Assembly (NCBI RefSeq): GCF_030814715.1
Contig: NZ_JAUSVO010000004.1
Coordinates: 62,001 to 126,000, forward strand
Length of the DNA stretch: 64,000 nt
From: Kaistia dalseonensis
GTDB lineage: Bacteria; Pseudomonadota; Alphaproteobacteria; Rhizobiales; Kaistiaceae
Direction of reading: 5' to 3'
The position numbers and the translations under genes were made by a program. This document shows, in pieces, positions 3,706-29,289 of this stretch. A model generated the notes under the pieces. The model was not told the origin of the DNA, ran no database searches, and worked only from the letters and a program-made list of their open reading frames with translations. Position 1 is the first letter of the stretch. Each line of letters begins with the position of its first letter.

Positions 3706-5438
3706 TGTTGGCGCACGATACCGTTCTCCATCGCGCAGGCGTCGCCAGGTCGGGCAATGCGGCCAAGGCCGACCCGATCACGACCGAGGTCGTCCGCCAT
3801 GCGCTGAATTCGGCCGCGAACCAGATGAAGCGTGCGCTGGTGCGCACGGCGTTCTCGCCGGTCATCTATGAAGTGCTCGATTTCGCCGTCGCGATCTACG
3901 ATCCGCAGATGCGCCTGCTCGCCCAGGCGCCGAGCCTGCCCATGTTCATGGGCACGCTCAATTTCTGCGTCGAGGAGGCCGTGAAGAATATCGGCGGGAC
4001 CGAGAACATGTTCCCCTGCGACATGATCATGTACAATTGGCCCTACGGCACGGGCTCGCATCCGCAGGATCTCGCCGTCATCAATCCCGTCTATCTCGAT
4101 GATGGCGAGCTGATCGGCTATACGGCGATCAAGGGGCATTGGCTCGATATTGCCGGCAAGGATCCTTATTGCACCGATACGGTCGATGTCTTCCAGGAAG
4201 GCACGATCTATCCGGGCGTGAAGATCTACAAGCGCGGCGAGCTGAACGACGATATCTATCGCATGGTGCTCGCCAATAGCCGTGTGCCGAAATTCGTCGC
4301 GGGCGATCTGAATGCGCAGGTCGTCGGTTGCCGCGTTGGTGCGGCGGGCTTCCTCGAAGTCGTCAACCGCTTCGGCCGCGACGAGTTCAGGAATGCGGTC
4401 GAGAACATGTTCGACCATGGCGAGCGGGTGGTGCGCTCCTATTTCGAGAGCATTCCCGATGGCCGCTATGTCGGCCATGGCGAGATGGATTCGAACGGCA
4501 TCACCGACGACAAGATCCCCTTCGAGGTCGTGGTCGAGATCGAGGGCTCCAATGTCCGCCTCGATTTCTCCAATGTGCCGGAAACGCAGGTCGGGCCCGT
4601 CAATTGCCCCGTGCCGTCGACCATATCGGCGAGTCGCGTGGCGATCAGCATGCTCGCCGGCTATGGCGAGGCCCCGCATGAGGGCCATTTCCGGCCCGTC
4701 GAAGTGGTGACGCGGCCGGGCACCATGTTCCATCCGCTGCCGCCTGCGCCGTGCTTCCTCTATGGCTGGCCCGCGCTGCAGGCGATCGAGGTGATCTACA
4801 ACGCGATTTCCAAGGCGCTGCCGGATGCGGTTCCCGCGCAGAGCGGCGGCTGCATCTGCTCCGTCGTCTCCTGGGGCACGCGCGAGGCAACGGGCGAGCC
4901 CTGGGCCGACGGCTCGCCACATCCGACCGGGCAGGGCGCGTGGAACGGGGGCGATGGCGGTACCATGCTGCACATCTCCGAGTCCGCCACGCGCTTCTCG
5001 CCGATCGAGGTCTGGGAGGCGAAGAATCCCTGGATGATGGACAAGCTCGCTCTGGCGCAGGATTCCGGCGGCCCGGGCACGTGGCGCGGTGGCCTCGGCG
5101 TCGATTTCCACTTCCGCATGACCGAGGACATCTTCATCACCACGGCCGTCGAGCGCACGAAGAATGCGCCCTGGGGCCTGCTCGGTGGCGAATCCGGCCG
5201 AGCCAATGGCGCTGCCGTCCGCTTCCCGGATGGCCGCGTCGTGTCGGTCCCCAAGACGACCCGCTTCATGGTGCCCAAGGATGCCGTGCTCGAGCTTTCG
5301 ACCGGCGGCGGCGGCGGTTTCGGCGATCCGGCCGAACGGCCTCGCGCGGCCGTCGAGGCCGATCTGAAGGCCGGTTATATTTCCGAGGCATTCGCCCGCG
5401 AGCATTATCCGCACGCCTTCGGCGAAGCTGCGGAATAA
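3705..5438 (+). CDS. hyuB: Hydantoinase/5-oxoprolinase subunit B (HyuB family)
   Basis: Partner subunit of the preceding HyuA protein, 577 residues. Recognisable features are DPITTEVVRHALNSAANQMK near the N-terminus (the usual HyuB opening), LVRTAFSPVIYEVLDFAVAI, the glycine-rich WNGGDGGTMLH region, and GGGGGFGDPAERP close to the C-terminus, which is diagnostic of the family. The start ATG overlaps the hyuA stop, and GGAGG sits at 3693-3697 inside the end of hyuA. The pair would form the cytoplasmic AB enzyme. A terminator-like hairpin follows the stop, so this appears to end the operon. Confidence 0.9.
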   Translation: MLAHDTVLHRAGVARSGNAAKADPITTEVVRHALNSAANQMKRALVRTAFSPVIYEVLDFAVAIYDPQMRLLAQAPSLPMFMGTLNFCVEEAVKNIGGTENMFPCDMIMYNWPYGTGSHPQDLAVINPVYLDDGELIGYTAIKGHWLDIAGKDPYCTDTVDVFQEGTIYPGVKIYKRGELNDDIYRMVLANSRVPKFVAGDLNAQVVGCRVGAAGFLEVVNRFGRDEFRNAVENMFDHGERVVRSYFESIPDGRYVGHGEMDSNGITDDKIPFEVVVEIEGSNVRLDFSNVPETQVGPVNCPVPSTISASRVAISMLAGYGEAPHEGHFRPVEVVTRPGTMFHPLPPAPCFLYGWPALQAIEVIYNAISKALPDAVPAQSGGCICSVVSWGTREATGEPWADGSPHPTGQGAWNGGDGGTMLHISESATRFSPIEVWEAKNPWMMDKLALAQDSGGPGTWRGGLGVDFHFRMTEDIFITTAVERTKNAPWGLLGGESGRANGAAVRFPDGRVVSVPKTTRFMVPKDAVLELSTGGGGGFGDPAERPRAAVEADLKAGYISEAFAREHYPHAFGEAAE

Positions 5439-13011: not shown

Positions 13012-13785
13012 TCAGTAGAGGCTTCTCGCCATGCGGTTCGCCGCACGTTCGATGTCACGCGTCTCGGCCTTGGCCACCAGCGCATAGGCGACGTCGCCGA
13101 TCTGCCAATAGGCGGCGGAAGCGTCATCGCGTGGCATGACGGTTACGGGCACGACGTCGAAGGCGCCGGGCCGCACGGCAAAGAGCGAAAGCGGGCCGAG
13201 ATCGCCCGCGTCGACGGCGATTTCCACGCTTGGGCCGAATTGCGACGGGAAGATCTGTACGTCGCGCACATGCCAGTCCTTGGGCAGGGCCGGCATGACG
13301 ATGGCGGTCGAGGCGCGGATCTCGTTCGGATCGAAATCGGTCGTCTCGTGCTGCGAGTGCATGCCGGCGCGCACCAGGCTCGTGCGGTGCGCCATGACGG
13401 CGTCGTCGAGATAGGCCGGCGGCAAAGACGAGGCGACGACCGGTCCTATTCCGAGCGGGCCGATTTCGGCATGCGCCAGCCAGCCCGCGGCAACGAGCGC
13501 CGCAACGGCTGCGACCCTGCGGAAACGTCCCATCAGGCGATCGCGCGAAAGTCCGCGCTCCAGGCGTCGCGCCGCATCCATCGTCTTGGCGGGGGGGTGG
13601 GGCGGCATGTCGGCCATGGTGAGCCGCAACTCGTCACGCGCTCGCAGATCAGCCATCACGCGACTGGCGAGATTGGCGTGGCGTGACAGGTGAGCTTCGA
13701 CCTCGATACGCCGCGACACGCCGAGCTGATCGTCGACATAAGCGTTGAGATCGGCATCGGTGATGGGATCAATCGGTCGTGTCAT
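13012..13785 (-). CDS. Transmembrane anti-sigma factor
   Basis: Predicted regulator of the ECF sigma factor encoded just upstream, 257 residues. Residues 1-75 form the cytoplasmic sigma-binding domain (ITDADLNAYVDDQL, EVEAHLSRHANLASRV), residues about 86-105 a single membrane helix (VAAVAALVAAGWLAHAEIG), and the rest is extracytoplasmic. In zinc-containing anti-sigma (ZAS) domains the helix carries Hx3Cx2C; here the corresponding segment is HLSRHANLA, without cysteines, so a redox-zinc switch is unlikely. The start overlaps the sigma gene by 17 nt, typical of sigma/anti-sigma pairs. The signal is unknown. Confidence 0.85.
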   Translation of the reverse strand: MTRPIDPITDADLNAYVDDQLGVSRRIEVEAHLSRHANLASRVMADLRARDELRLTMADMPPHPPAKTMDAARRLERGLSRDRLMGRFRRVAAVAALVAAGWLAHAEIGPLGIGPVVASSLPPAYLDDAVMAHRTSLVRAGMHSQHETTDFDPNEIRASTAIVMPALPKDWHVRDVQIFPSQFGPSVEIAVDAGDLGPLSLFAVRPGAFDVVPVTVMPRDDASAAYWQIGDVAYALVAKAETRDIERAANRMARSLY

Positions 13786-14332
13786 CCGAGCCTCCCACGA
13801 TCTTGAGGTGATGAATGCGTGTCGGATCGGGCCGCTCGATCAGGACCGGGCCGTCCTCGATGGCGCGCAGCGTCGCGCGGGCCCGGCCGAGCCGCGACAT
13901 CAGCGTGCCGATCGGAATGGCGAGCGTGGTCGCGGCCTCGGCATAGGAGAGCCCTTCGATCGCGACGAGGTGCAGCGCCGCCCGCTGTTCTTCCGGCAGC
14001 GCCAGGAAAGTCTGCCGCACCTGGGCCAGGCGTACCGCATGGTCCTGCGGCGGCGCCTCCGAATGGGGGGCCAGATTGCCGGCATGCCCGATGCGAAGCT
14101 GCTCTGAACGGCGGGCGCGGATGCGGTCGACGAAGATATTGTGCAGGATCGAGAGCAGCCAGGCGCGCAGGTTGCGCTCCGGGCGAAAGCTCTCGCGCTT
14201 CTCATAGGCGCGGACGAGCGCCTCCTGGACGAGGTCTTCGGCGTCGGTCTCGTCGCGCGTCAGGGAGCGCGCATAGCGGCGAAGCGGTGCGAGCTGTCCG
14301 ACGATATCGAAGCGATGTCTGTCTGTGGTCAT
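13769..14332 (-). CDS. ECF-type RNA polymerase sigma factor
   Basis: Extracytoplasmic-function sigma factor of 187 residues. Region 2 is visible as RRYARSLTRDETDAEDLVQEALVRAY with NLRAWLLSILHNIFVDRIR; region 4 is LPEEQRAALHLVAIEGLSYAEAATTLAIPIGTLMSRLGRARATLR. The ATG at 14332 is chosen because the protein then begins a few residues before region 2; a longer reading to 14458 would add an arginine-rich non-family extension. Its 3' end overlaps the anti-sigma gene, so the two are co-transcribed and co-regulated. No PhyR/NepR partner is present, so this is probably not the general stress EcfG. Downstream BI-1 and DUF2076 genes may be part of its regulon. Confidence 0.9.
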   Translation of the reverse strand: MTTDRHRFDIVGQLAPLRRYARSLTRDETDAEDLVQEALVRAYEKRESFRPERNLRAWLLSILHNIFVDRIRARRSEQLRIGHAGNLAPHSEAPPQDHAVRLAQVRQTFLALPEEQRAALHLVAIEGLSYAEAATTLAIPIGTLMSRLGRARATLRAIEDGPVLIERPDPTRIHHLKIVGGSDDTTD

Positions 14333-14473
14333 GTCCCGTATACGGAGCCACCGGGCTCTTTCATCCCATATGGTGATGATTTTTCGTATCGGGCGGTCCA
14401 TGTGGGCTGCAGTGGCACACATGGGTGGAGAATGCAGGCCCTCTATCGAGCCCGGCAATGACCGTTTCGGCTG

Positions 14474-16350: not shown

Positions 16351-19300
16351 TCAAGCTCCTTCAAGCAATGCGACGACATCGCCGGCGCGGACCGTTCGGC
16401 CCGGCTGGCAGCGCAGGCCCGTGATGCGGCCGGCGATCGGCGTCGTGATTTCCATTTCCATCTTCATGGATTCGACGATGACAACCGGCTGGCCGGCTTC
16501 AACCTCAGAACCCTCTTCGACGAGGATCTTCCACACATTCCCTGTCATATGCGCCGAAATCGCGCTCATGCCGGGCGGAATTGCCTCGCCATCCCCCGCC
16601 GGTGGTCCGCCATCGTCACTGACGAAGCTGTCGAGGCCGCGGGCCTTCCAATCGGCACGCTCCGCCTCGAACGCCGCCTGTCGTTTCGATTGAAAGGCGG
16701 TGATCTCGTCATCGTTCTCGGCCAGGAACTTGGCATATTCGGCATAGGAGAAGGTCGTTTCCTCGATCCTGACCGGATAGCGGCCATGCGGAAAAGCCTC
16801 GCGGGCCTCGATCAGTTCCGCCTCGCTGACCGGGAAGAACTTGACCCGGTCGAAGAAGCGCAGCAGCCAGGGATGGCCGGGCGTGAACTCGCTGGTCGTT
16901 CGCCAGGAGTTCCACATCTGGATCGTGCGGCCGAAGAGCTGGTAGCCGCCAGGACCCTCCATCCCATAGATGCAGAGATAGGCCCCGCCGATCCCGACCG
17001 CATTTTCCGGCGTCCATGTGCGGGCCGGATTATACTTGGTCGTGACGAGGCGGTGGCGCGGATCAACCGGCGTCGCGACCGGCGCGCCGAGATAGACGTC
17101 GCCGAGGCCGAGCACCAGATAGTCCGCCTCGAAGACCGTGCGATAGACGTCGTCGATCGAGGAAAGCCCGTTGATGCGACGGATGAACTCGATATTGGAC
17201 GGACACCAGGGCGCATCGGGCCTGACCAGTTCCTGATATTTCCGCATGGCGAGCTGGACCGACGGATCGTTCCAGGACAGCGGCAGATGCACGATGCGCG
17301 AGGGCACCGTGACCTCTTCCGCCGCCGGCAGACCAGCCTCGATCTCGGTCAGCGCGTCGAGCAGTGTGCCGGCGGCGAGCACCGTGCTGTCGAAATGCAC
17401 CTGCAGCGAACGGATACCGGGCGTCAGCTCGATGATCCCCGGAAGCTTGGCCTGTTCGACAGCATTCGCCAGCAGATGAACCCGCAGCCGTAGCGCGATA
17501 TCGAGCATCATCGGCCCATATTCGACGAGCAGATTGTCGGTCCCCGCACGCCGATAGACGACCGGCACCGGGCCGTTCTCCAGTCTTCGCAGGATCGGGC
17601 TCGATCTCTTCTCCCTTTCCCCGAAGGGGGGAGGGCCGGGGAGGGGGCGAGCCTGCACGTTCTCACCGATAGCGTCCAATACCGAGCGAGCTGCCCCCTC
17701 TCCAACTCTCCCCCCTTCGGGGAGAGAGGGCGCACCGAGCGTGTCGACGGCGCTGGCCGCCTCCGCATCAACGAACCTTACTCCGTCGCCGGGCTTCAAC
17801 TGCCCCATCTTCCAGAGGTCGTCCCGCGTGATCACCACCGGGCAGACGAACCCGCCGAGGCTCGGTCCGTCGGGGCCGAGGATGATCGGCATGTCGCCCG
17901 TGAAATCGATCGAGCCGATCGCATAGGCGTTGTCGTGGATGTTGGAGGGGTGCAGCCCCGCTTCGCCGCCATCCGCACGGGCCCAGCGCGGCTGCGGCCC
18001 GATCAGGCGCACGCCGGTGCGCGCGCTGTTGAAATGCACCTCGTAGCGTGACGCAAACAGATCATCGATATCGGCGGGCATGAAGAAATCCGGCGCGCCA
18101 TGCGGACCATAAAGAACCCGAACGGTCCATTCGCGCGTCAGTTCCGGCCGTTCCTCCGGCGACGCCATGCGGGGCTCGGCCACCGCCTTGTCGTCGATCT
18201 TGAGCACATCGCCGGCGCGTAGCGTTCCGGTGGCGTGGCCGCCGAACTTGCCGAGATTGAAGGTCGCGCGCGAGCCGAGGAAGAGTGGCGCGTCGATCCC
18301 GCCGCGGATCGCGAGATAGCTGCGCTGGCCGGGACCGTCGATCGGTCCGAGCGCCAGCACCTGCCCGGCTTTGACGGACACCGGCTCGAAGAAGGGCACG
18401 GCCGCGCCGTCCAGTTTCGCCGTCATCGCCGCCCCGGCCAGCGCGACCAGCGCGTCGCGGTGGAATTTCAGCGTCGGTCCGACCACCGTGCATTCGAGCG
18501 CTGCGGCGCCCTCTTCATTGCCGACGATCCGATTGGCGAGGCGGTGCGAGCGATCGTCCATCGGGCCGGATGGCGGAATGCCGACATTCCAGAGCCCGAG
18601 CCGGCCGGGCCAGTCCTGTACGCTGGTCTGGGCGCCAGGCGAAAGCACTTCGATCGCGCGCGGCGTGAAGGCGAAGCTCTTCAACACGCTTGTCGAGACC
18701 GCGCTGCTCGTGAACGCGTCGGATGCCGTGACCGCGCGCAGATAATCCAGATTGGTCTCGATGCCGTAGAGCGCCGTCTGGGCGAGCGCCGCCTGCAGCC
18801 GGGTGAGCGCATCGGCGCGGTCGGCGCCGTGCACGATCAGCTTGGCGAGCATCGGGTCGTAATAGGGCGTCACCTCGCTGCCGGTCTCGATCCAGCCATC
18901 GACGCGCACGCCTTCCGGAAAGCTCACCTCCGTGAGCAGCCCGGTCGAAGGCCGGAAATCGGCCTGCGGATTTTCCGCATAGATGCGGACCTCCATCGCA
19001 GCGCCCTTCGGCACCAGCGTGGCCTGTTCGGGAAGGATGAACGCCCCGGCTGCCTGTCGGATCATCCATTCGACGAGGTCGACGCCGAACACGGCCTCTG
19101 TCACCGGATGCTCGACCTGAAGTCGCGTATTCACCTCGAGGAAATAGAAGTCCTCGCGGGCGACGTCATAGATGAACTCGACCGTGCTCGCGGATTCATA
19201 GGAAACCGCCTTGCCGAGCGCGATCGCGGCAGCATGAAGACGCTGGCGCAGCCCATCGGAAAGCCCCGGCGCCGGGGTCTCCTCGACGACCTTCTGGTTG

Positions 19301-19998
19301 CGTCGCTGCAGCGAGCAGTCACGCTCACCGAGCGCCACGACATGGCCCCTTCCATCGCCGAAGATCTGCACCTCGACATGGCGCGCCTCGGCGACGAAGC
19401 GCTCGAGATAGACGCGGGCATCGCCAAAGCTTGCGCCGGCCATGCGCTGTACGGCCTCGAACTTCGCGCGCAGCTCGGCCGCGTCATGGCAGAGCTGCAT
19501 GCCGATGCCGCCACCGCCGGCCGTGCTCTTCAGCATGACCGGATAGCCTACCGTTTCGGCTGCGGCGACTGCCTCGTCGGCCGTGGCGATCAGGTCGCTC
19601 CCCGGCAGCAGCGGTACACCGCAGCGCCTGGCGATTTCGCGCGCGGTGTGCTTCAGCCCGAAATCGCGCAGCTGTTCCGGCCGCGGCCCGATGAAGGTGA
19701 TGCCATGCGCGGCGAGGCGTTCGGCAAAGGCGGCGTTCTCCGACAGGAAGCCGTAGCCCGGATGTACGGCCTCGGCTCCCGTCGCAAGACAGGCCGCGAT
19801 GATGGCCTCGACATCGAGATAGCTCTCCTTCACCGGCGCGGGGCCGATGGCGACCGCCTCATCGGCATCGAGCACCGGCCGCGTGAAGCGATCGGCCTCG
19901 GAAAAGACGGCGACAGACTGGATATTGAGCCGGCGCAAAGTTCGTATGATACGTCCGGCGATTTCGCCCCGGTTGGCGATCAGAACCTTCCTGAACAT
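16351..19998 (-). CDS. Biotin-dependent urea/guanidine carboxylase (urea carboxylase family)
   Basis: Single-chain biotin enzyme of 1215 residues. Residues 1-450 are biotin carboxylase (GGGGIGMQ loop, FLEVNTRLQVEHPVTE); about 455-745 and 810-1080 are the two carboxyltransferase halves (KipA/AHS2 and KipI/AHS1); about 1140-1213 is the biotinyl domain with VESMKMEME, lysine near 1178. Family members carboxylate urea or, when paired with the two DUF1989 proteins, guanidine, using ATP and bicarbonate. The riboswitch and neighbours here favour guanidine, giving carboxyguanidine. Residues about 752-808, exactly between the two carboxyltransferase halves, are encoded by a palindromic repeat inserted in frame. 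The start is 4 nt after the DUF1989 gene stop. Confidence 0.93.
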   Translation of the reverse strand: MFRKVLIANRGEIAGRIIRTLRRLNIQSVAVFSEADRFTRPVLDADEAVAIGPAPVKESYLDVEAIIAACLATGAEAVHPGYGFLSENAAFAERLAAHGITFIGPRPEQLRDFGLKHTAREIARRCGVPLLPGSDLIATADEAVAAAETVGYPVMLKSTAGGGGIGMQLCHDAAELRAKFEAVQRMAGASFGDARVYLERFVAEARHVEVQIFGDGRGHVVALGERDCSLQRRNQKVVEETPAPGLSDGLRQRLHAAAIALGKAVSYESASTVEFIYDVAREDFYFLEVNTRLQVEHPVTEAVFGVDLVEWMIRQAAGAFILPEQATLVPKGAAMEVRIYAENPQADFRPSTGLLTEVSFPEGVRVDGWIETGSEVTPYYDPMLAKLIVHGADRADALTRLQAALAQTALYGIETNLDYLRAVTASDAFTSSAVSTSVLKSFAFTPRAIEVLSPGAQTSVQDWPGRLGLWNVGIPPSGPMDDRSHRLANRIVGNEEGAAALECTVVGPTLKFHRDALVALAGAAMTAKLDGAAVPFFEPVSVKAGQVLALGPIDGPGQRSYLAIRGGIDAPLFLGSRATFNLGKFGGHATGTLRAGDVLKIDDKAVAEPRMASPEERPELTREWTVRVLYGPHGAPDFFMPADIDDLFASRYEVHFNSARTGVRLIGPQPRWARADGGEAGLHPSNIHDNAYAIGSIDFTGDMPIILGPDGPSLGGFVCPVVITRDDLWKMGQLKPGDGVRFVDAEAASAVDTLGAPSLPEGGRVGEGAARSVLDAIGENVQARPLPGPPPFGEREKRSSPILRRLENGPVPVVYRRAGTDNLLVEYGPMMLDIALRLRVHLLANAVEQAKLPGIIELTPGIRSLQVHFDSTVLAAGTLLDALTEIEAGLPAAEEVTVPSRIVHLPLSWNDPSVQLAMRKYQELVRPDAPWCPSNIEFIRRINGLSSIDDVYRTVFEADYLVLGLGDVYLGAPVATPVDPRHRLVTTKYNPARTWTPENAVGIGGAYLCIYGMEGPGGYQLFGRTIQMWNSWRTTSEFTPGHPWLLRFFDRVKFFPVSEAELIEAREAFPHGRYPVRIEETTFSYAEYAKFLAENDDEITAFQSKRQAAFEAERADWKARGLDSFVSDDGGPPAGDGEAIPPGMSAISAHMTGNVWKILVEEGSEVEAGQPVVIVESMKMEMEITTPIAGRITGLRCQPGRTVRAGDVVALLEGA
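17611..17730. repeat. GC-rich bipartite palindromic element inserted in frame in the carboxylase gene
   Basis: Two inverted arms, 17611-17648 and 17693-17730 (core CCCCGAAGGGGGGAG and its inverse), flank a 44-bp centre. The same arms build the arrays at 23193-24120 and 28802-29289. The centre resembles that of the element at 28802-28913 (both contain ACCGAT/GCCGAT and a following AATACC/GATACC). The element keeps the reading frame open and adds a Gly/Pro-rich linker. Confidence 0.8.
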
Positions 19999-20002
19999 GG
20001 CG

Positions 20003-20671
20003 TCACGCAGTCGCCGGATCGAAGATCATCACGCGGATCGGCGTCGGATTGAAGCCGTTGCAGGGATTATTGACCTGCGGGCAGTTCGAGATCGCGCAGA
20101 TCACGTCCATGGTCGCGAGAATGTCGACATAGTCGCCGGGCCGGGAGACGCCGTCGACGATGGCGAGCTTGCCATCGGGCTCGATCGGCACGTTCATGAA
20201 GAAGTTGATGTTCGGCACGATGTCGCGCTTGGTCATGCCGTGCTCGGCCATTGCGATGATGAAATTCTCGCGGCAGGCATGCATGTATCGCGTGTGATGG
20301 CCGAAGCGGACCGTGTTCGCCTCGCAGGAACAGGCGCCGGCGGAGGTGTCGTGCCGGCCCGCCGTATCGGCGACCACGACCGCCATGACATTGCCGATGT
20401 TCGACATCAGCCGCGTGCCGGTCGAGACATAGGGCGCACCCTGTTCGAAGATCGTATCCTGTGCGCTGTAGCGCTCGCTGGTGTCGGCGGCCGCATAGAA
20501 CAGCGTGTCGACGGCCTGCTGGCCTTCGAGATCGACGATGCGGAGGATCTGGCCCTTCTCGACGATGCCGGTCCAGGGCTTGTTGGCGGGAACCACGAAA
20601 TCATAGACGGCCCTGGCGGGATCGAGCGCGACCGGGGCGGCGAAGAAGGAGGATGCGTCGGGCTGGTTCAT
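20003..20671 (-). CDS. DUF1989 protein, carboxyguanidine deiminase subunit (formerly urea amidolyase-associated protein 2)
   Basis: Cytoplasmic protein of 222 residues in the DUF1989 family. Motifs: VDLEGQQAVDTLFYAAADTSERYSA near residue 48 and ISNCPQVNNPCNGFNPTP near the C-terminus, both strongly conserved in urea-carboxylase-associated proteins. This family, once named UAAP, has been reassigned in published work as the two subunits of carboxyguanidine deiminase (CgdA/CgdB), which turns carboxyguanidine into allophanate and ammonia. The partner gene lies 10 nt upstream and the carboxylase gene 4 nt downstream. Cysteines such as those in SNCPQVNNPC are candidate metal ligands, which is inference. 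Confidence 0.9.
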   Translation of the reverse strand: MNQPDASSFFAAPVALDPARAVYDFVVPANKPWTGIVEKGQILRIVDLEGQQAVDTLFYAAADTSERYSAQDTIFEQGAPYVSTGTRLMSNIGNVMAVVVADTAGRHDTSAGACSCEANTVRFGHHTRYMHACRENFIIAMAEHGMTKRDIVPNINFFMNVPIEPDGKLAIVDGVSRPGDYVDILATMDVICAISNCPQVNNPCNGFNPTPIRVMIFDPATA

Positions 20672-20681
20672 GGCGTCCTCC

Positions 20682-21506
20682 TTAAGCGCGCAGATAGGTG
20701 GCGTTGTTGTCGAAGCCGCGCGCGGACTCGGCCGTCGCGGTCCGCGCCAGATCGTCGGCCGCCGGCTCCGGCAGGGCGAAAATGATTGCGGCCACGGGCC
20801 CGGGATCGAAGACGCTGTCGGGCGCCAGCGGATGCGGGCAGTTCGAGACTGCGACGATCAGGTCCAGTTCTGCGCGCAGATCGACGAAATCGCCCGGCTG
20901 GACGATGCCGTCGCACCAGGCGAGCTTCCCCTCGTTATCCACGATGACCGGGGCGAAGAAGGTGATCACCGGCGCGATGTCGCGCCGGCCGAGGCCATGC
21001 TTGCCGGCGGCGAGCAGCATGTTTTCCCGCGTCGAGCGCAGCGCGCCATCGCCATATTTGCGGGCATTGGAAGCAGGGGTCGAGCCACCGACGATCGTGT
21101 CATGCGCGCCGGTCGTATCCTCGACGATCGAGAACAATACGCGGCCCATGTCGGAGAACAGCACGCGGCCTTTCCGGAGCTCGGATGTCCACTGCACCTT
21201 GACCGTATCGGCGCTGTTGTAGCGCTCGCTGGTGTCGTTTGCGTTCCAGGCAAAGAGCGAGACGCCGGGCGTGCCAGAGATGTTCAGGAGCCGCAGGCCC
21301 TCGCCGCGCTTCACCTTGGCAGTCCAGTACCAGCCGCCGGGAATCTCCTCGCGGTGGAGGATATCCCCTTCCGCGATCGGCGCGCCGTCGCGCGGCGTCG
21401 GTGGCGGCAGCACCTTTGGGGCCGCGGCGTCGCCGGCGGCTTTCAGTTCCTCATAGCGCTTCCGATTGGCTTCAATCAGCGCGGCCTTGTCCAGATGCGC
21501 GGTCAT
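20682..21506 (-). CDS. DUF1989 protein, carboxyguanidine deiminase subunit (formerly urea amidolyase-associated protein 1)
   Basis: Paralogue of the following gene, 274 residues, with an N-terminal extension of about 50 residues (NRKRYEELKAAG...). The shared motifs are LLNISGTPGVSLFAWNANDT, DIAPVITFFAPV and VAVSNCPHPLAPD; the second cysteine cluster of the partner is absent, as expected for two non-identical subunits. It would form the heteromeric carboxyguanidine deiminase. Its start overlaps the ABC ATPase stop by 4 nt (ATGA), linking transport and catabolism in one transcript. Assignment to A or B subunit is not attempted. Confidence 0.9.
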   Translation of the reverse strand: MTAHLDKAALIEANRKRYEELKAAGDAAAPKVLPPPTPRDGAPIAEGDILHREEIPGGWYWTAKVKRGEGLRLLNISGTPGVSLFAWNANDTSERYNSADTVKVQWTSELRKGRVLFSDMGRVLFSIVEDTTGAHDTIVGGSTPASNARKYGDGALRSTRENMLLAAGKHGLGRRDIAPVITFFAPVIVDNEGKLAWCDGIVQPGDFVDLRAELDLIVAVSNCPHPLAPDSVFDPGPVAAIIFALPEPAADDLARTATAESARGFDNNATYLRA

Positions 21507-22339
21507 AGCGCGGCTCCTTCAATGGCCGGGTCGTCCCGGAGTGATCCCGATGGTGCCGGGTCGTCCCGGCCGGGCATGAGCTTCTTCTTCTGTGGCCTGG
21601 GTTCGCCGGCGATGCGTTTCGGCCAGACCTCGAAATCGCGCGTGATCGTCGCGCCGTAGCGCCCGCCATCGGAGGGCTCGTTGCGCCGCCGCTCGAAGGC
21701 GATGACGCGCGTGCCGAGCGAGAACGCCTCCGAGAGGTCGTGCGTCACCATCACCACGGTGAGCGGCCGCTCGTGCCAGAGCTTGCGCATCAGCGTGTGG
21801 ATCTCGGCGCGAATGCCGGGATCGAGCGCGCCGAACGGTTCGTCGAGCAGCAACACCTTGGGCTTGGCGATCAGCGCCTGCGCGAGTGCGAGGCGCTGCT
21901 GCATGCCGCCGGAAAGCTGGGCGGGATATTTATTCTCCGCCTCGCCGAGCCCGACGGCGGCGAGCAGTTCGCGCGCCTCGTCCTCCGCCGCGCGGCGCTT
22001 GGCGCCGAAGAGCCGGCCCAGGATCGGCGCGTCCTTGAACTCGAGCCCGAGCACGACGTTGCCGAGCACGGTCAGGTGCGGAAATACCGAATAGCGCTGG
22101 AAGACGACGCCGCGATCGGCGCCCGGCTCGGCCGGCAGTGGCGCGCCGCCAATGGTGATCGCGCCGCGCGTCGGCGCCTCTTCCGAGAGCAACATGCGCA
22201 GGAAGGTCGTCTTGCCGCAGCCCGAGGGACCGACGAGGGCGACGAAGGCGCGCGGCGCGATCTCGAGGCTGATCTGCTCAAGCACGACCTTGTCGTCATA
22301 TTCCTTCCAGACATCCTTGACCGAGATGACCGCGCTCAT
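21503..22339 (-). CDS. NitT/TauT-type ABC transporter ATP-binding protein of the guanidine/urea-carboxylase operon
   Basis: Cytoplasmic ATPase of 278 residues. Walker A is GPSGCGKTT (about residue 37), Q-loop VFQRYSVFPHL, signature LSGGMQQRLALAQAL, Walker B VLLLDEPFGALDP and H-loop VTHDLSEAF. The C-terminal 60 residues (after VIAFERRRNEPSDGG) are longer than in SsuB/TauB-type ATPases and match the form found in urea-carboxylase clusters. The start ATG overlaps the permease stop (ATGA). It powers import through the permease encoded upstream; guanidine or a derivative is the likely cargo given the riboswitch. Confidence 0.92.
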   Translation of the reverse strand: MSAVISVKDVWKEYDDKVVLEQISLEIAPRAFVALVGPSGCGKTTFLRMLLSEEAPTRGAITIGGAPLPAEPGADRGVVFQRYSVFPHLTVLGNVVLGLEFKDAPILGRLFGAKRRAAEDEARELLAAVGLGEAENKYPAQLSGGMQQRLALAQALIAKPKVLLLDEPFGALDPGIRAEIHTLMRKLWHERPLTVVMVTHDLSEAFSLGTRVIAFERRRNEPSDGGRYGATITRDFEVWPKRIAGEPRPQKKKLMPGRDDPAPSGSLRDDPAIEGAAL

Positions 22340-23157: not shown

Positions 23158-23192
23158 GAGCGGGCCTCCGTCTGCCGAGACACGGCGCCACC

Positions 23193-24120
23193 CCATTCCC
23201 TCTCCCCGAAGGGGGGAGGGTCAGGGAGGGGGCTCGTCGTTTCCGCGCTGAAATCGTCGCCGAGCACGCTCCATGCCCAGCACAGAACCTCCTCTCCAGC
23301 TCTCCCCTCTGTGGGGAGAGAGGGCAGGACGGAGCCTGTCACGAGGGATGGATGGTTTCCCCCAGCGCCTGGAAAGGCTCCGCCCCATTCCCTCTCCCCG
23401 AAGGGGGGAGGGTTAGGGAGGGGGCTCGTCGTTTCCGCGCTGAAATCGTCGCCGAACACGCTCCATGTCAGGCCCAGATCCCCCTCTCCAGCTCTCCCCC
23501 CTGCGGGGAGAGAGGGTAGGACGGAGCCCGTCACGAAGGATGGACGGTTTGCCCCAGCGCCTGCAAAAGCTCCACCCCATTCCCTCTCCCCGAAGGGGGG
23601 AGGGTCAGGGAGGGGGCTCGCAGGCTCCGTCGCGAAATCGTCGCCGGACACGCTCCATGTCCGGCCCAGACCCCCCTCTCCAGCTCTCCCCCCTGCGGGG
23701 AGAGAGGGCAGGGCGGAGCCTGTCGCGAGGGATGGACGGTTTCCCCCAGCGCCTGGAAAGGCGCCACCCCATTCCCTCTCCCCGAAGGGGGGAGGGTTAG
23801 GGAGGGGGCTCGCAGGCTCCGTCGCGAAATCGTCGCCGGACACGCTCTTTGTCCGGCACAGAACCCCCTCTCCAGCTCTCCCCCCTGCGGGGAGAGAGGG
23901 CAGGGCGGAGCCGGTCACGAAGGATGGATGGTTTGCCCCAGCGCCTGGAAAAGCTCCACCCCATTCCCTCTCCCCGAAGGGGGGAGGGTTAGGGAGGGGG
24001 CTCGCAGGCTCCGTCGCGAAATCGTCGCCGAACACGCTCCATGTCCGGCGCGGCGCCCCCTCTCCAGCTCTCCTCCCTGCGGGGAGAGAGGGCAGGGCGG
24101 AGCCTGTCGCGAGGGGCGGG
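23193..24120. repeat. 192-bp tandem repeat array between binding-protein and permease genes
   Basis: The landmark CCATTCCCTCTCCCCGAAGG recurs (one copy truncated in reading but same phase) at 23193, 23385, 23577, 23769 and 23961, an exact 192-bp period, giving nearly five units. Each unit contains an arm CCCCGAAGGGGGGAGGG and, about 90 bp on, its inverse CTCTCCCC...GGGGAGAGAGGG, so it can fold into a large stem and several small hairpins. Units differ by scattered substitutions only. 192 is divisible by three, and both strands stay open for about 300 codons. The array fills the whole gap 23158-24130; no convincing gene is seen in it. Confidence 0.92.
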
Positions 24121-24130
24121 CCCATCGGGA

Positions 24131-25204
24131 TCACAGCTTTCCGGCGGCCGCGTCGGCCATGAAGGCATCAGTGAAGCGGAACTTCACATTGCCCGTATCG
24201 CCGAGAACCTTGCCATCGGCGAGTTCGATGCCGACGACGTCGGCCGAGGCGGCGCCATTGCCGAGCAAGCCGTGCTCGAACAGGAAGCCGCGGACATGGT
24301 CCATGGTCGCGCCGATCTCGGGGCTCTTGGCGAAGGCCGCCGCCTCGTCGGGCTTGAAGAACATCTTCGTCGCCTTGAGCTGCGCCTCATAGCCGGCGAG
24401 ATCGGTGCCCGAGGCCTTGCCCATCGCCTCGCGGGCGGCTTTGCCCTCGGGCGTATCCGACGCCATGATCGCCATGGTCTCATACCAGGCGCCGGCCAGA
24501 GCCTTGCCGAAAGCGGGATTGTCCTTGAGCGTTCCGGTGTTGACGGCGGTCAGGTCGATGATCTTGCCGGGGATCTGCGAGGAGTTGAACACCTCATGCG
24601 CCGCCGGCGTCTTCATGATCTCGGCGACGAGCGGGTTCCAGGTCACGACCGCCGTCACATCCGGCGTCGCCCAGGCGGCGACCATGTCGGCGTCGGAGGT
24701 GGAGACGACCGTCAGGTCCTTCTCGGTCAGCCCGATCGTCGAAAGCGCGCGGGCGAGCAGATAGTGCGAAACCGAGAACTCGACCAGATTGACCTTCTGG
24801 CCCTTGATGTCGGCAAGCGCGGTCTTGTCCTTCAAGATCACGGCGTCATTGCCGTTGGAGAAATCGCCGACGATCACGGCGGTCGTGTCGACGCCGCCGG
24901 CCGCGGGAATCGAAAGCGCATCCATATTGGTGAGCGTGACGGCGTCGAAGCCGCCGGCCGTGTATTGGTTGATCGATTCGACATAGTCGTTGATCTGCAC
25001 GACATCGATCTTGATGCCGTATTTGTCGGCCCATTTCTTGACGATGCCCTGGTCCGCCGCCCATTGCCACGGCATCCAGCCGACATAGATCGACCAGGCG
25101 AGCTTGAATTCAGTCTTGGGTGCTGCCTGTGCCGAGGCTCCCATCAGGGAGACGGCCAGGAGGCCGGCTGCGAGGCCACCCTTCAGAACGTTCGAAATTT
25201 TCAT
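24131..25204 (-). CDS. ABC transporter substrate-binding protein of the guanidine/urea-carboxylase operon
   Basis: Secreted periplasmic binding protein of 357 residues, NitT/TauT-like fold. Signal peptide MKISNVLKGGLAAGLLAVSL ending ASAQA. The mature part begins KTEFKLAWSIYVGWMPWQWA, which is the characteristic opening of the putative urea/guanidine binding proteins found beside urea carboxylase. The ATG at 25204 is chosen because GGAG at 25211-25214 is 6 nt upstream; a TTG at 25210 would overlap that site. It is the first gene after the guanidine riboswitch and is followed by the repeat array. Confidence 0.92.
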   Translation of the reverse strand: MKISNVLKGGLAAGLLAVSLMGASAQAAPKTEFKLAWSIYVGWMPWQWAADQGIVKKWADKYGIKIDVVQINDYVESINQYTAGGFDAVTLTNMDALSIPAAGGVDTTAVIVGDFSNGNDAVILKDKTALADIKGQKVNLVEFSVSHYLLARALSTIGLTEKDLTVVSTSDADMVAAWATPDVTAVVTWNPLVAEIMKTPAAHEVFNSSQIPGKIIDLTAVNTGTLKDNPAFGKALAGAWYETMAIMASDTPEGKAAREAMGKASGTDLAGYEAQLKATKMFFKPDEAAAFAKSPEIGATMDHVRGFLFEHGLLGNGAASADVVGIELADGKVLGDTGNVKFRFTDAFMADAAAGKL

Positions 25205-25233
25205 TGCCAACTCCGCTCACGGTTCCGACGAAA

Positions 25234-25272
25234 CCTGGAATTGGCACAGACCTTCCCGTCGCCAATTCCTGG
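25234..25272 (-). promoter_or_regulatory. Possible expression-platform hairpin of the guanidine riboswitch
   Basis: On the minus strand CCAGGAATTGGC (25272-25261) can pair with GCCAATTCCAGG (25245-25234), 9 continuous base pairs plus an outer CC/GG, with a 15-nt loop and then TTT. It lies between the aptamer and the ribosome site, where a transcription-control hairpin is expected. The T-tract is short, so the mechanism is uncertain. Confidence 0.45.
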
Positions 25273-25277
25273 CCACT

Positions 25278-25391
25278 GAGGTCTCCCGGGATTTTATCCC
25301 GCCGTGCCCCATGCGGATTTCTCCCGCACAGGCGGCAGCTCTCGGACCAGCCGTCGCCCTGCGACGCGGAACCCTAGCCACCAACTCAATG
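25278..25391 (-). ncRNA. Guanidine-I (ykkC) riboswitch aptamer
   Basis: Read on the minus strand, all conserved blocks of the ykkC/guanidine-I class occur in order: CTAGGGTTCCG (25377-25367), a perfect hairpin CGTCGC-AGG-GCGACG (25366-25352), CTGGTCCGAGAG (to 25339), and ACGGCGGGATAAAATCCC running into GGGAGAC (to 25281). The class binds free guanidinium and turns on downstream genes. It sits about 75 nt before the start of the binding-protein gene, so it controls the whole transporter/carboxylase/deiminase/hydrolase operon. The outer stem boundaries are approximate. Confidence 0.93.
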
Positions 25392-26720: not shown

Positions 26721-28802
26721 CTATTCGACGAAAACGGTCACCCTGTCGGAGCGCCCGGCCGAATCGACGACGGAGAGCGTAACAAATCCCGGCCCATCCG
26801 GCGCCCAACTCTCCGAGCGTTGAAACGGCGTCCGCGCGATAGGGGTTCCATTGGCAAACCAGGTGAAGGGTGGCTTGCCATTGCGGATCTTGATCATGAG
26901 CGGCATCGGGTCGCCGTCGCGAATGCCGAGATCGACCTGGACGCCATCCGGTGGAAAGGCGATTTCCGGCGTGTCGGGCGCCTTGTTGGCCATCACCTCC
27001 GGCCCACGGAAGCGTTTCAGCGGCTCCGGCAGGTCGCCATTGGCCGCAATCAGCGCGCCGCGCGGGGCAGGGCGCAGCGGCGCGCGGTCCCCGCCCAGGC
27101 GGTCGAATGCCTCGAACAGCACCGGAGCGGCCGTGCCGATGCCGGAAAGGCCGGGAACCGGCGCCCCATCCGCGCGGCCGACCCAGACGCCGATGACCGT
27201 CCGGCCGTCAAAGCCGATCGACCAGGCGTCACGATAGCCATAGGACGTGCCGGTCTTGTAGGCGATCCGGCCCGATGCGCCGATGACGGGCGGCGGAACG
27301 TCGGCTAGGATGTTGGCGACATACCAGGCCGCGACCGGCTCGAGCACGGGCGCGCTCTCGATGGCCGGCGCGGGCGCGCCAGTGCCGTCATGCAGAGCGA
27401 CCGGCCGGCCGCCGCGCGCGATGGCGGCGTAGACCGAGACGAGGTCCTTGAGCGATATGCCGACGCCGCCGAGGCCGATGGCGAGGCCCGGCGCCGAGAG
27501 ATCCGGCAGTTTCGGGCTTGCCGCCGCGCGCTTCAGCCGCGCCACGAGGCGGGCGGGCCCGACCGCGTCGAGCACCTTCACCGCCGGCACGTTCAGCGAT
27601 TCGGTGAGTGCGTCGTGGATCGTCACCGTGCCGCGATAGAAGCCGTCGAAATTCACGGGCGCATAGCCGCCGAACGCGCTCGGCCGGTCCTCGATCAGGC
27701 TCTGCGGATGGGCGATGCCCTGCTCGAAGGCGAGGCCATAGATCAGCGGCTTCAGCGTCGAGCCGGGCGAGCGGATCGCGGTCGTCATGTCGACGAAGCC
27801 GTTCCGGCTGTCGTCCATGAAGCCGGCCGAACCGACCGAGGCGAGGATATTGCCGGTGACGTGGTCGGCGACGACGATCGCGACGGACGCCTTCGGGCCG
27901 ACGGTGGCGGCGCGATCGGAGGCGAGTTCTTCGAGCGTCTGCTGCAGCCGCGCGTCCAGCGTGAGCTTGACGATGGCATCGTTCGGATGCGCCTTGCGGG
28001 CGAGATCGCCCAAATGGGCGGCGAGCATCGGGAATGGCTTTCGCGCCGTCGGGACGCGCTCGGTCTTGGCGGCTGAGGCGGCGTCGGCATCGATGACGCC
28101 GGCCGTGACCAGCCTGTCGAGCACGCGGTCGCGTGCTGCCTTTGCGGCCTTGGGGTCGCGATCGGGACGGCGTGCCTCCGGTGCCTGCGGCAGGGCGACG
28201 AGCAAGGCGGATTCGGCGATGGTCAGCCGGCGCGGCTCCTTGCCGAAATAGGCTAGGCTCGCGGCGCGGATGCCTTCGAGATTGCCGCCATAGGGCGCGA
28301 GCGCGAGATAGAGCGAGAGGATCTGCTCCTTGTCGAGCCGGTCCTCCAGCGTCAGCGCGTGGACGATCTGGCGCAATTTGCTTTCGGCCGCGCGGGTCGA
28401 GCCGCCCTGCACGAGGCGGGCGACCTGCATGGTCAGCGTCGACCCGCCCGAGACGACATGGCCGGTCTCGGCGATCTGGCCGGCGGCGCGGATGAGCGCC
28501 TGCCAGTCGACGCCGTGATGGGTGGCGAAATTCTTGTCCTCATAGCCCTTCAGCATGGCGATGAAGGTCGGATCGACCTCGCCGAGCGTCACGGGCAGGC
28601 GCCAGCGCCCATCGGCGATGGTGTAGGGCCGCAGCAGCGTATCGGAGCGATCGACGATGATTGCGGACGTCGGCACGGTCCTGGGGTCTGTTACCGGCGG
28701 CAGGCCGGCGCGGATATCATGCACCGCTCCGCCGAGCCAGGCGGTCGAGAAGAAGGCCATCGTCGCCAGCGTCAGGCCGGCAACGGCAAACGCCTTCTTC
28801 AC
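26721..28802 (-). CDS. pbpC: Penicillin-binding protein 1C (bifunctional glycosyltransferase/transpeptidase)
   Basis: Inner-membrane peptidoglycan synthase of 693 residues. N-terminal helix FAVAGLTLATMAFFSTAWL; GT51 domain with the catalytic glutamate in GYEDKNFATHHGVDW and GGSTLTMQVARL; transpeptidase domain with SPGSTLKP (SxxK), ESLN (SxN) and KTGTS; C-terminal BiPBP_C domain from about residue 600. The GTG at 28802 gives a normal short cytoplasmic end. The open frame continues upstream to 29303 only through the repeat array, so that extension is probably not protein. The gene follows the alpha-2-macroglobulin gene, the usual pairing (yfhM-pbpC), and is likely a repair synthase at sites of damage. 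Confidence 0.9.
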   Translation of the reverse strand: MKKAFAVAGLTLATMAFFSTAWLGGAVHDIRAGLPPVTDPRTVPTSAIIVDRSDTLLRPYTIADGRWRLPVTLGEVDPTFIAMLKGYEDKNFATHHGVDWQALIRAAGQIAETGHVVSGGSTLTMQVARLVQGGSTRAAESKLRQIVHALTLEDRLDKEQILSLYLALAPYGGNLEGIRAASLAYFGKEPRRLTIAESALLVALPQAPEARRPDRDPKAAKAARDRVLDRLVTAGVIDADAASAAKTERVPTARKPFPMLAAHLGDLARKAHPNDAIVKLTLDARLQQTLEELASDRAATVGPKASVAIVVADHVTGNILASVGSAGFMDDSRNGFVDMTTAIRSPGSTLKPLIYGLAFEQGIAHPQSLIEDRPSAFGGYAPVNFDGFYRGTVTIHDALTESLNVPAVKVLDAVGPARLVARLKRAAASPKLPDLSAPGLAIGLGGVGISLKDLVSVYAAIARGGRPVALHDGTGAPAPAIESAPVLEPVAAWYVANILADVPPPVIGASGRIAYKTGTSYGYRDAWSIGFDGRTVIGVWVGRADGAPVPGLSGIGTAAPVLFEAFDRLGGDRAPLRPAPRGALIAANGDLPEPLKRFRGPEVMANKAPDTPEIAFPPDGVQVDLGIRDGDPMPLMIKIRNGKPPFTWFANGTPIARTPFQRSESWAPDGPGFVTLSVVDSAGRSDRVTVFVE

Positions 28803-29289
28803 CCTCTCCCCGAGGCGGGGAAGGTCGGGGAGGGCGCGCAGATCCTCGCCGATCGCGTTCGATACCGCGTTAGGCACCCCCTCTCCAACTCTCCCCCCTT
28901 CGGGGAGAGAGGGCTCGCTGCGGCCTTCATCGGCATGGGCGCGAAAACTCGATCCTGTTCCTTCCCCCTTGTGGGGGAGGCTAGGAGGGGGGAGCGCTGG
29001 GGCAGGGCTCGGCGCACCCGGAGAGGCCGACGCGGCGCTATCCGGAGAGGTCCGGAAACCATCCCCCTCTCCAGCTCTCCCCCCTTCGGGGAGAGAGGGC
29101 TCGCTGCGGCCTTCATCGGCATGGGCGCGATCACTCGATCCTGTCCCTCCCCCCTTGTGGGGGAGGCTAGGAGGGGGGAGCGCTGGGGCAAGGCTCGGAG
29201 CACCCGGAGAGGCCGACGCGGCGCTATCCGGAGAGGTCCGGAAACCATCCCCCTCTCCAGCTCTCCCCCCTTCGGGGAGAGAGGGCTGG
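28802..29289. repeat. 186-bp tandem repeat array plus bipartite element upstream of pbpC
   Basis: 28802-28913 is a bipartite element like the one inside the carboxylase gene (arms 28802-28838 and 28877-28913). After it the landmark GGGGAGAGAGGGCT recurs with GGG at 28911, 29097 and 29283, an exact 186-bp period, giving two full units and a third arm. Each unit also carries a second hairpin, CCCCCTTGTGGGGGAGG. The two full units differ at only a few bases. 186 is divisible by three. The array occupies almost all of the gap between the alpha-2-macroglobulin gene and pbpC (28803-29342); no independent gene is seen. Confidence 0.9.

Follow-up and report, generated by a model that had tools for sequence, protein, structure and literature searches.

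A probable guanidine-assimilation operon of Kaistia dalseonensis with a second riboswitch inside its importer ATPase gene

The 64-kb window analyzed here (64,000 nucleotides of contig NZ_JAUSVO010000004.1 of the alphaproteobacterium Kaistia dalseonensis) contains, on its reverse strand, an operon whose proteins carry family names that point to urea. Its best complete explanation is a guanidine-assimilation operon in which guanidine would control two points of a single transcript, a reading that we hold with a probability of about 85%. A Guanidine-I riboswitch (class I) heads the operon, and a Guanidine-II riboswitch (class II) lies within the gene for the ATPase of an ATP-binding cassette (ABC) transporter. 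The operon type as such is known; what is new is the class-II element buried in the importer gene, together with an apparently translational class-I leader.

Both elements come from a scan of the entire window with Rfam 15 (cmscan), which gave two matches at the gathering score (Table 1). In whole-genome searches (5.18 Mb), the window copies were the sole matches found for either class. A preliminary description of this DNA, made without database searches, had claimed a Guanidine-I switch before the operon, and the covariance-model search bears this out with a full-length match to the class (RF00442). The four conserved blocks that had been recognized in order on the operon strand all fall within the RF00442 alignment, and the spacing to the first gene, estimated at about 75 nt, is 76 nt (from the aptamer end at 25281 to the ATG at 25204). 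Its interpretation is thereby supported, if largely known already; the second switch is absent from it. This Guanidine-II element agrees with its class (RF01068) in having two hairpins with ACGA loops, which follow the ACGR pattern of the class, and a score above the gathering cut-off, but differs in that it lies within a coding sequence. Read in the ATPase frame, both loops give Arg-Asp-Asp-Pro; the stop codon of the ATPase gene and the start of the first DUF1989 gene overlap as ATGA (21503-21506). Directly before the first degradation gene, the element would turn the enzymes on.

Downward from 25204, the gene order is substrate-binding protein (SBP), permease, ATPase, two DUF1989 proteins, carboxylase and allophanate hydrolase, the last two genes adjoining each other; from order and spacing, all genes would share one transcript. 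In the family search of the window, the SBP, both DUF1989 proteins, the carboxylase and the hydrolase exceed curated cut-offs; the permease matches and the listed ATPase matches fall under theirs. The carboxylase has the TIGR02712 architecture expected of a guanidine carboxylase, and the presence of both the UAAP1 and the UAAP2 family, as expected of a two-subunit carboxyguanidine deiminase, confirms the earlier statement that both subunits are encoded (we label them CgdA and CgdB, respectively, by gene order). Guanidine would thus be imported by the ABC transporter and carboxylated to carboxyguanidine, which the DUF1989 pair would deiminate to allophanate, and the latter would be hydrolyzed to ammonia. 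Taken together, the operon looks like one for guanidine uptake and degradation, not for urea use.

The competing view is that of the annotation, in which a urea ABC transporter and a urea carboxylase/amidolyase with accessory proteins would make up a urea operon. It has the NCBIfam names on its side, as TIGR03427 is called 'putative urea ABC transporter substrate-binding protein' and TIGR02712 'urea carboxylase'. We consider it highly improbable, given that both guanidine switches and both deiminase subunits are found in the operon and that the carboxylase has the guanidine-type residue at a published discriminating position. According to passages of PMC11410670, guanidine carboxylases need Asp at the positions equivalent to 1330 and 1584 of the K. 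lactis urea amidolyase, and position 1330 separates them from urea carboxylases. The window carboxylase has Asp at both: D698 aligns with N1330 and D967 with D1584 of the K. lactis enzyme (5i8i). As far as the sequence tells, 'urea' is therefore a wrong label here, as the preliminary description had argued. While this re-reading of 'urea carboxylase' operons has already been published (passages of PMC12186494 and PMC12508155), it corrects the annotation in the present lineage. The same residue recurs at the 1330 position in 38 of the 39 dual-switch loci examined.

How could guanidine act at the first switch? Between the aptamer and the SBP gene, we recognize three strands (X, X' and the Shine-Dalgarno arm; Table 1). 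X' is able to pair with X or with the Shine-Dalgarno arm, but not with both at once. Without guanidine, X' would cover the Shine-Dalgarno sequence of the SBP gene; with guanidine, X would draw X' off, freeing the Shine-Dalgarno sequence and turning the importer on. We propose that ligand binding may be coupled to this choice by the pairing of AGGTCT with AGACCT at the 3' edge of the aptamer. None of 200 shuffles reaches the three-strand score of the window leader. Scores with p<0.05, uncorrected for multiple testing or relatedness, were obtained for 16 of 39 alphaproteobacterial leaders and for 1 of 16 from other classes, and in the operons of all 16 of the former, the ATPase frame contains class II completely or in part; in L107 and L108, which were scored at a different start codon, the pattern is visible by eye. 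In an alignment of 18 leaders (A1; 11 rows were used for a sub-count), five of the nine pairs of the anti-Shine-Dalgarno helix vary on both sides, and four of five measures for this helix, including the covariation score, are reached by none of 500 shuffles. Class I is usually described as a transcriptional ON switch (passages of PMC12186494), which favors an ordinary transcription-termination switch here as well. We nevertheless regard such a switch as unlikely, since no U run follows the strong hairpin in the leader, no terminator-like site, the usual though not obligatory platform, was found in the leader, and the Shine-Dalgarno, anti-Shine-Dalgarno and mimic strands covary. Because of this covariation and the missing terminator-like site, the leader looks like a translational ON switch with a Shine-Dalgarno mimic, in which it would differ from the terminator-based members of its class.

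The arrangement recurs in relatives. Riboswitch-family searches covered 297 genomes of the order, 337 of the class and 299 of the phylum, in overlapping samples. The order and class samples contained 88 Guanidine-I matches above the cut-off (64 plus 24 new ones), including that of the window. Two of them lie near contig ends and were left out, and the remaining 86 loci (numbered with the prefix L) were sorted by tblastn with the window proteins. In 27, Guanidine-I is followed by the importer and then by DUF1989 genes and carboxylase; this group includes L107-L109, where no SBP match turned up in the stretch from Guanidine-I to the permease. In another 10, the DUF1989 genes stand directly behind Guanidine-I, and 42 have at least part of the importer and show no DUF1989 gene on that strand. 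Six of the latter (L082, L135, L140, L151, L152 and L157) are too short to judge, which leaves 36 informative importer-only loci. Importer cassettes for which no adjoining degradation gene was seen on that strand occur, for instance, in L077-L086, L088-L090, L092 and L094-L098, and in seven loci (L093, L130, L131, L134, L143, L145 and L148) tblastn found none of the operon's genes behind Guanidine-I. Altogether, the importer cassette, whole or in part and with or without degradation genes, stands behind 69 of the 86 matches. The ABC transporter therefore fits a guanidine importer, and this recurrence makes the cassette a strong candidate for a characterized one.

In the sampled Alphaproteobacteria, every one of the 27 class-I-led operons with importer and enzymes has Guanidine-II at the junction between the ATPase and DUF1989 genes. 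This count rests on 23 matches at E<=0.001 (22 of them above the Rfam cut-off), on L076 with 27.5 bits, and on L156, L159 and L161, where two hairpin loops of the sequence GGACGRC, spaced by 45, 47 and 31 nt, were recognized by eye and Rfam at E<=0.3 reported none. At E<=0.001, class II was found at none of the 10 direct and none of the 36 informative importer-only loci. The junction copies lie wholly in the ATPase frame in 17 cases, partly so in two and between the genes in eight. In a permease-plus-ATPase tree (81 of 85 rows, with a midpoint root that serves the drawing only), all 27 operons fall into one group (support 99/93), within which embedded and intergenic forms are intermixed. In the other classes of the phylum sample, class II is intergenic between the second DUF1989 and the carboxylase gene in all 16 same-contig pairs, which is the layout known from print. 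As a separate observation, L076 has a divergent Guanidine-II at 565-612, on the strand opposite to the adjoining Guanidine-I at 915-1026, which possibly controls a divergent gene.

Named organisms show the same junction, as judged in the best 80 of 520 relatives examined (L168 and L106 are one locus). An ATPase match stands just before a DUF1989 gene in 47 of these loci, and 19 of these junctions, among them ones from Xanthobacter, Methylocystis and Rhodoblastus, have the double loop of class II by motif; 15 of these lie completely in frame, and four are intergenic. Where the Guanidine-I core motif is found upstream (16 loci), the double loop is present in 15. On the Rhizobium leguminosarum plasmid pSK05, class II (40.2 bits; positions 4896-4945 of L246) falls within the ATPase coding sequence annotated at 4144-4974. 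A universal rule of class II at every such junction was rejected, as 28 of the 47 lack the double loop by motif. Apart from these, 16 Methylobacterium and Methylorubrum loci (L177, L180, L181, L183-L194 and L198) have a class-II-like double loop before DUF1989-carboxylase genes, with no importer ATPase match just upstream; Rfam was run on L177 only.

Whether the overlap with the ATPase frame has a meaning of its own is a question apart. At all 17 embedded loci, the ATPase stop follows the element after 13-29 nt, either at the DUF1989 start or shortly ahead of it, which would bring a terminating ribosome beside that start. In our main reading, the two small hairpins would fold anew after one ribosome has passed and before the next arrives, and would govern how translation of the DUF1989 gene is initiated or re-initiated at its start codon, which shares bases with the stop of the ATPase. 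A more far-reaching possibility is that Guanidine-II is a translated riboswitch, unfolded by every ribosome that finishes the ATPase and stops at the DUF1989 start. In this case, enzyme synthesis would depend on guanidine speeding up the return of the hairpins once a ribosome has moved on, so that guanidine and importer translation would be read together and enzyme output would be tied to importer output on one mRNA. We put this latter possibility forward tentatively and with considerable doubt. To the alternative, a real and regulatory Guanidine-II whose overlap is accidental and whose translation has no regulatory meaning, we give even odds. Overlap alone proves no role, because open frames come easily in such GC-rich DNA, and most of 23 tabulated alphaproteobacterial class-II segments have no stop in any frame. 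An accidental overlap would also agree with the eight intergenic and two partly intergenic copies among the 27, with the mixing of both forms in the tree, with loops that are read in other frames in L102 and L103, and with the lack of protein-level constraint on the encoded tail in same-genus rows. The uniformly short distance from the element to the ATPase stop is the point that speaks against it.

A function of the ATPase tail at the protein level was also considered. In five same-genus rows, 787 of 1105 differences in the ATPase body are at third positions (684 synonymous versus 231 non-synonymous codons), compared with 21 of 66 in the class-II part (10 versus 32). Four smaller groups are less clear, with third-position shares in the class-II part of 10/20 (f23; 10 synonymous versus 8 non-synonymous codons), 4/7 (f103), 4/9 (f91) and 9/29 (f94). 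As the same-genus rows show no third-position excess in the class-II part, we dropped a protein function of the tail as an explanation, though it may hold in some groups; the encoded peptide seems not to be what is kept. Conservation of the loop frame was likewise discarded as proof that the peptide matters, since 15 of the 17 embedded loci share one phase and L102 and L103 do not.

Several observations weigh against a guanidine operon with two working gates. The dual-switch locus L068 has Asn, the urea-type residue, at the 1330 position. In L208, the sixteenth of the named loci led by class I, class II is reduced to a degenerate form, with a degenerate first hairpin recognized by eye. At 27 named junctions of ATPase and DUF1989 genes, neither switch is found by motif despite Asp at 1330, and Rfam runs on three of them (L211, L216 and L223) reported neither guanidine class; by name, these loci are mostly Sphingomonadales. 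Beside this stands the observation that 32 of the 35 loci L211-L245 have Asp at 1330 (three gave no answer), while a motif search showed no guanidine riboswitch in these loci. The absence of class II elsewhere holds at the sensitivity of our searches, because the strict genome-search filters lose weak matches. In the leaders, the three-strand pattern is non-significant in 23 of the 39 alphaproteobacterial cases, the fifth covariation measure (further pair types) is reached by 418 of 500 shuffles, and the 18 rows of A1 were picked after the pattern had been noticed. Finally, folding gives the Shine-Dalgarno sequence before the first DUF1989 gene an unpaired probability of 0.50 both in the free RNA and with the hairpins locked, with mixed results in relatives. 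We therefore discarded simple RNA folding as a demonstration of Shine-Dalgarno unmasking by class II, as the window gave no support for it and the relatives gave inconsistent results, and the output step of class II rests on the literature.

Table 1. Features of the guanidine operon in the window (positions in the 64,000-nt window)
Feature	Position	Strand	Evidence
Guanidine-I riboswitch aptamer, RF00442	25281..25388	-	cmscan 81.6 bits, cut-off 63, E 5.6e-13, model 1-107 of 107
Strand X GGAATTGGC, mimic of Shine-Dalgarno arm	25261..25269	-	from sequence; pattern matched by 0/200 shuffles
AGGTCT, complement of AGACCT at 25279-25284 (aptamer 3' edge)	25248..25253	-	sequence, folds of relatives
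Strand X' GCCAATTCC, anti-Shine-Dalgarno	25237..25245	-	pairs with X or Shine-Dalgarno; 5/9 pairs vary on both sides
Shine-Dalgarno arm GGAGTTGGC, directly before ATG 25204	25206..25214	-	
SBP, candidate guanidine-binding, 357 aa	24131..25204	-	TIGR03427 543.2 bits, cut-off 333.9
Head-to-tail 192-nt repeat copies (four full, one 163 nt), between SBP and permease	23185..24115	.	
ABC transporter permease, 286 aa	22336..23196	-	TauC/NtrB-type families, all below cut-off; operon position; tblastn relatives
ABC transporter ATPase, 278 aa; Guanidine-II element in final codons	21503..22339	-	
Guanidine-II riboswitch aptamer, RF01068, wholly in ATPase frame	21526..21570	-	cmscan 42.1 bits, cut-off 32
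Shine-Dalgarno GAAGGAG of first DUF1989 gene, also in ATPase frame	21514..21520	-	
Carboxyguanidine deiminase subunit, UAAP1/DUF1989	20682..21506	-	TIGR03425 276.3 bits, cut-off 205.95
Carboxyguanidine deiminase subunit, UAAP2/DUF1989	20003..20671	-	TIGR03424 327.6 bits, cut-off 284.7
Guanidine carboxylase, 1215 aa, family-model name 'urea carboxylase'	16351..19998	-	TIGR02712 1876.7 bits, cut-off 1303.85
Allophanate hydrolase, putative start codon	14519..16354	-	TIGR02713 803.2 bits, cut-off 511.05

Two further features of the region are of note. The 192-nt repeat between the SBP and permease genes is GC-rich, with partly inverted halves; related pieces lie at 28802-29289 and in the carboxylase frame at 17612-17745, where the aligned L067 and L102 have gaps, and its 30-base core has 12 genome-wide matches at <=3 mismatches. 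Further along its strand, the operon is followed at 13012-14458 by a sigma factor of the extracytoplasmic function (ECF) type, which scores above its cut-off, and a weak anti-sigma-like match.

The layout adds an arrangement that could escape surveys of intergenic DNA, since its second switch lies in coding sequence; the survey in PMC2864571, for instance, compared intergenic regions, according to passages of that paper. It also raises the testable question of whether a metabolite-binding RNA can function while ribosomes translate through it, and the same layout on the Rhizobium leguminosarum plasmid places it in a genus with laboratory genetics. In the literature on guanidine importers, dual-class operons and coding-sequence riboswitches, with few subscription papers among it, we did not find a Guanidine-II element inside an ATPase gene described. 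The passages of a survey of tandem riboswitches (PMC9481103) report no tandem arrangement involving any of the four guanidine classes and are silent on switches that lie some kilobases apart within one operon.

Dual-switch operons as such have been published, with class II between cgdB and gca (passages of PMC12508155), an intergenic layout that the Kaistia operon does not match. With the operon of Vreelandella boliviensis, as described in these passages, it shares the Guanidine-I leader, the ABC importer, the deiminase pair, the carboxylase, the allophanate hydrolase and an internal Guanidine-II; it differs in the position of class II, which lies in the ATPase frame ahead of the first DUF1989 gene, and in that the carboxylase and hydrolase genes adjoin. 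Likewise, the operons of Raoultella, Erwinia and Klebsiella (passages of PMC12186494) have class I before the importer and deiminase genes and class II before the downstream enzymes, but while their class II precedes only the carboxylase and hydrolase genes, that of Kaistia precedes the deiminase genes as well.
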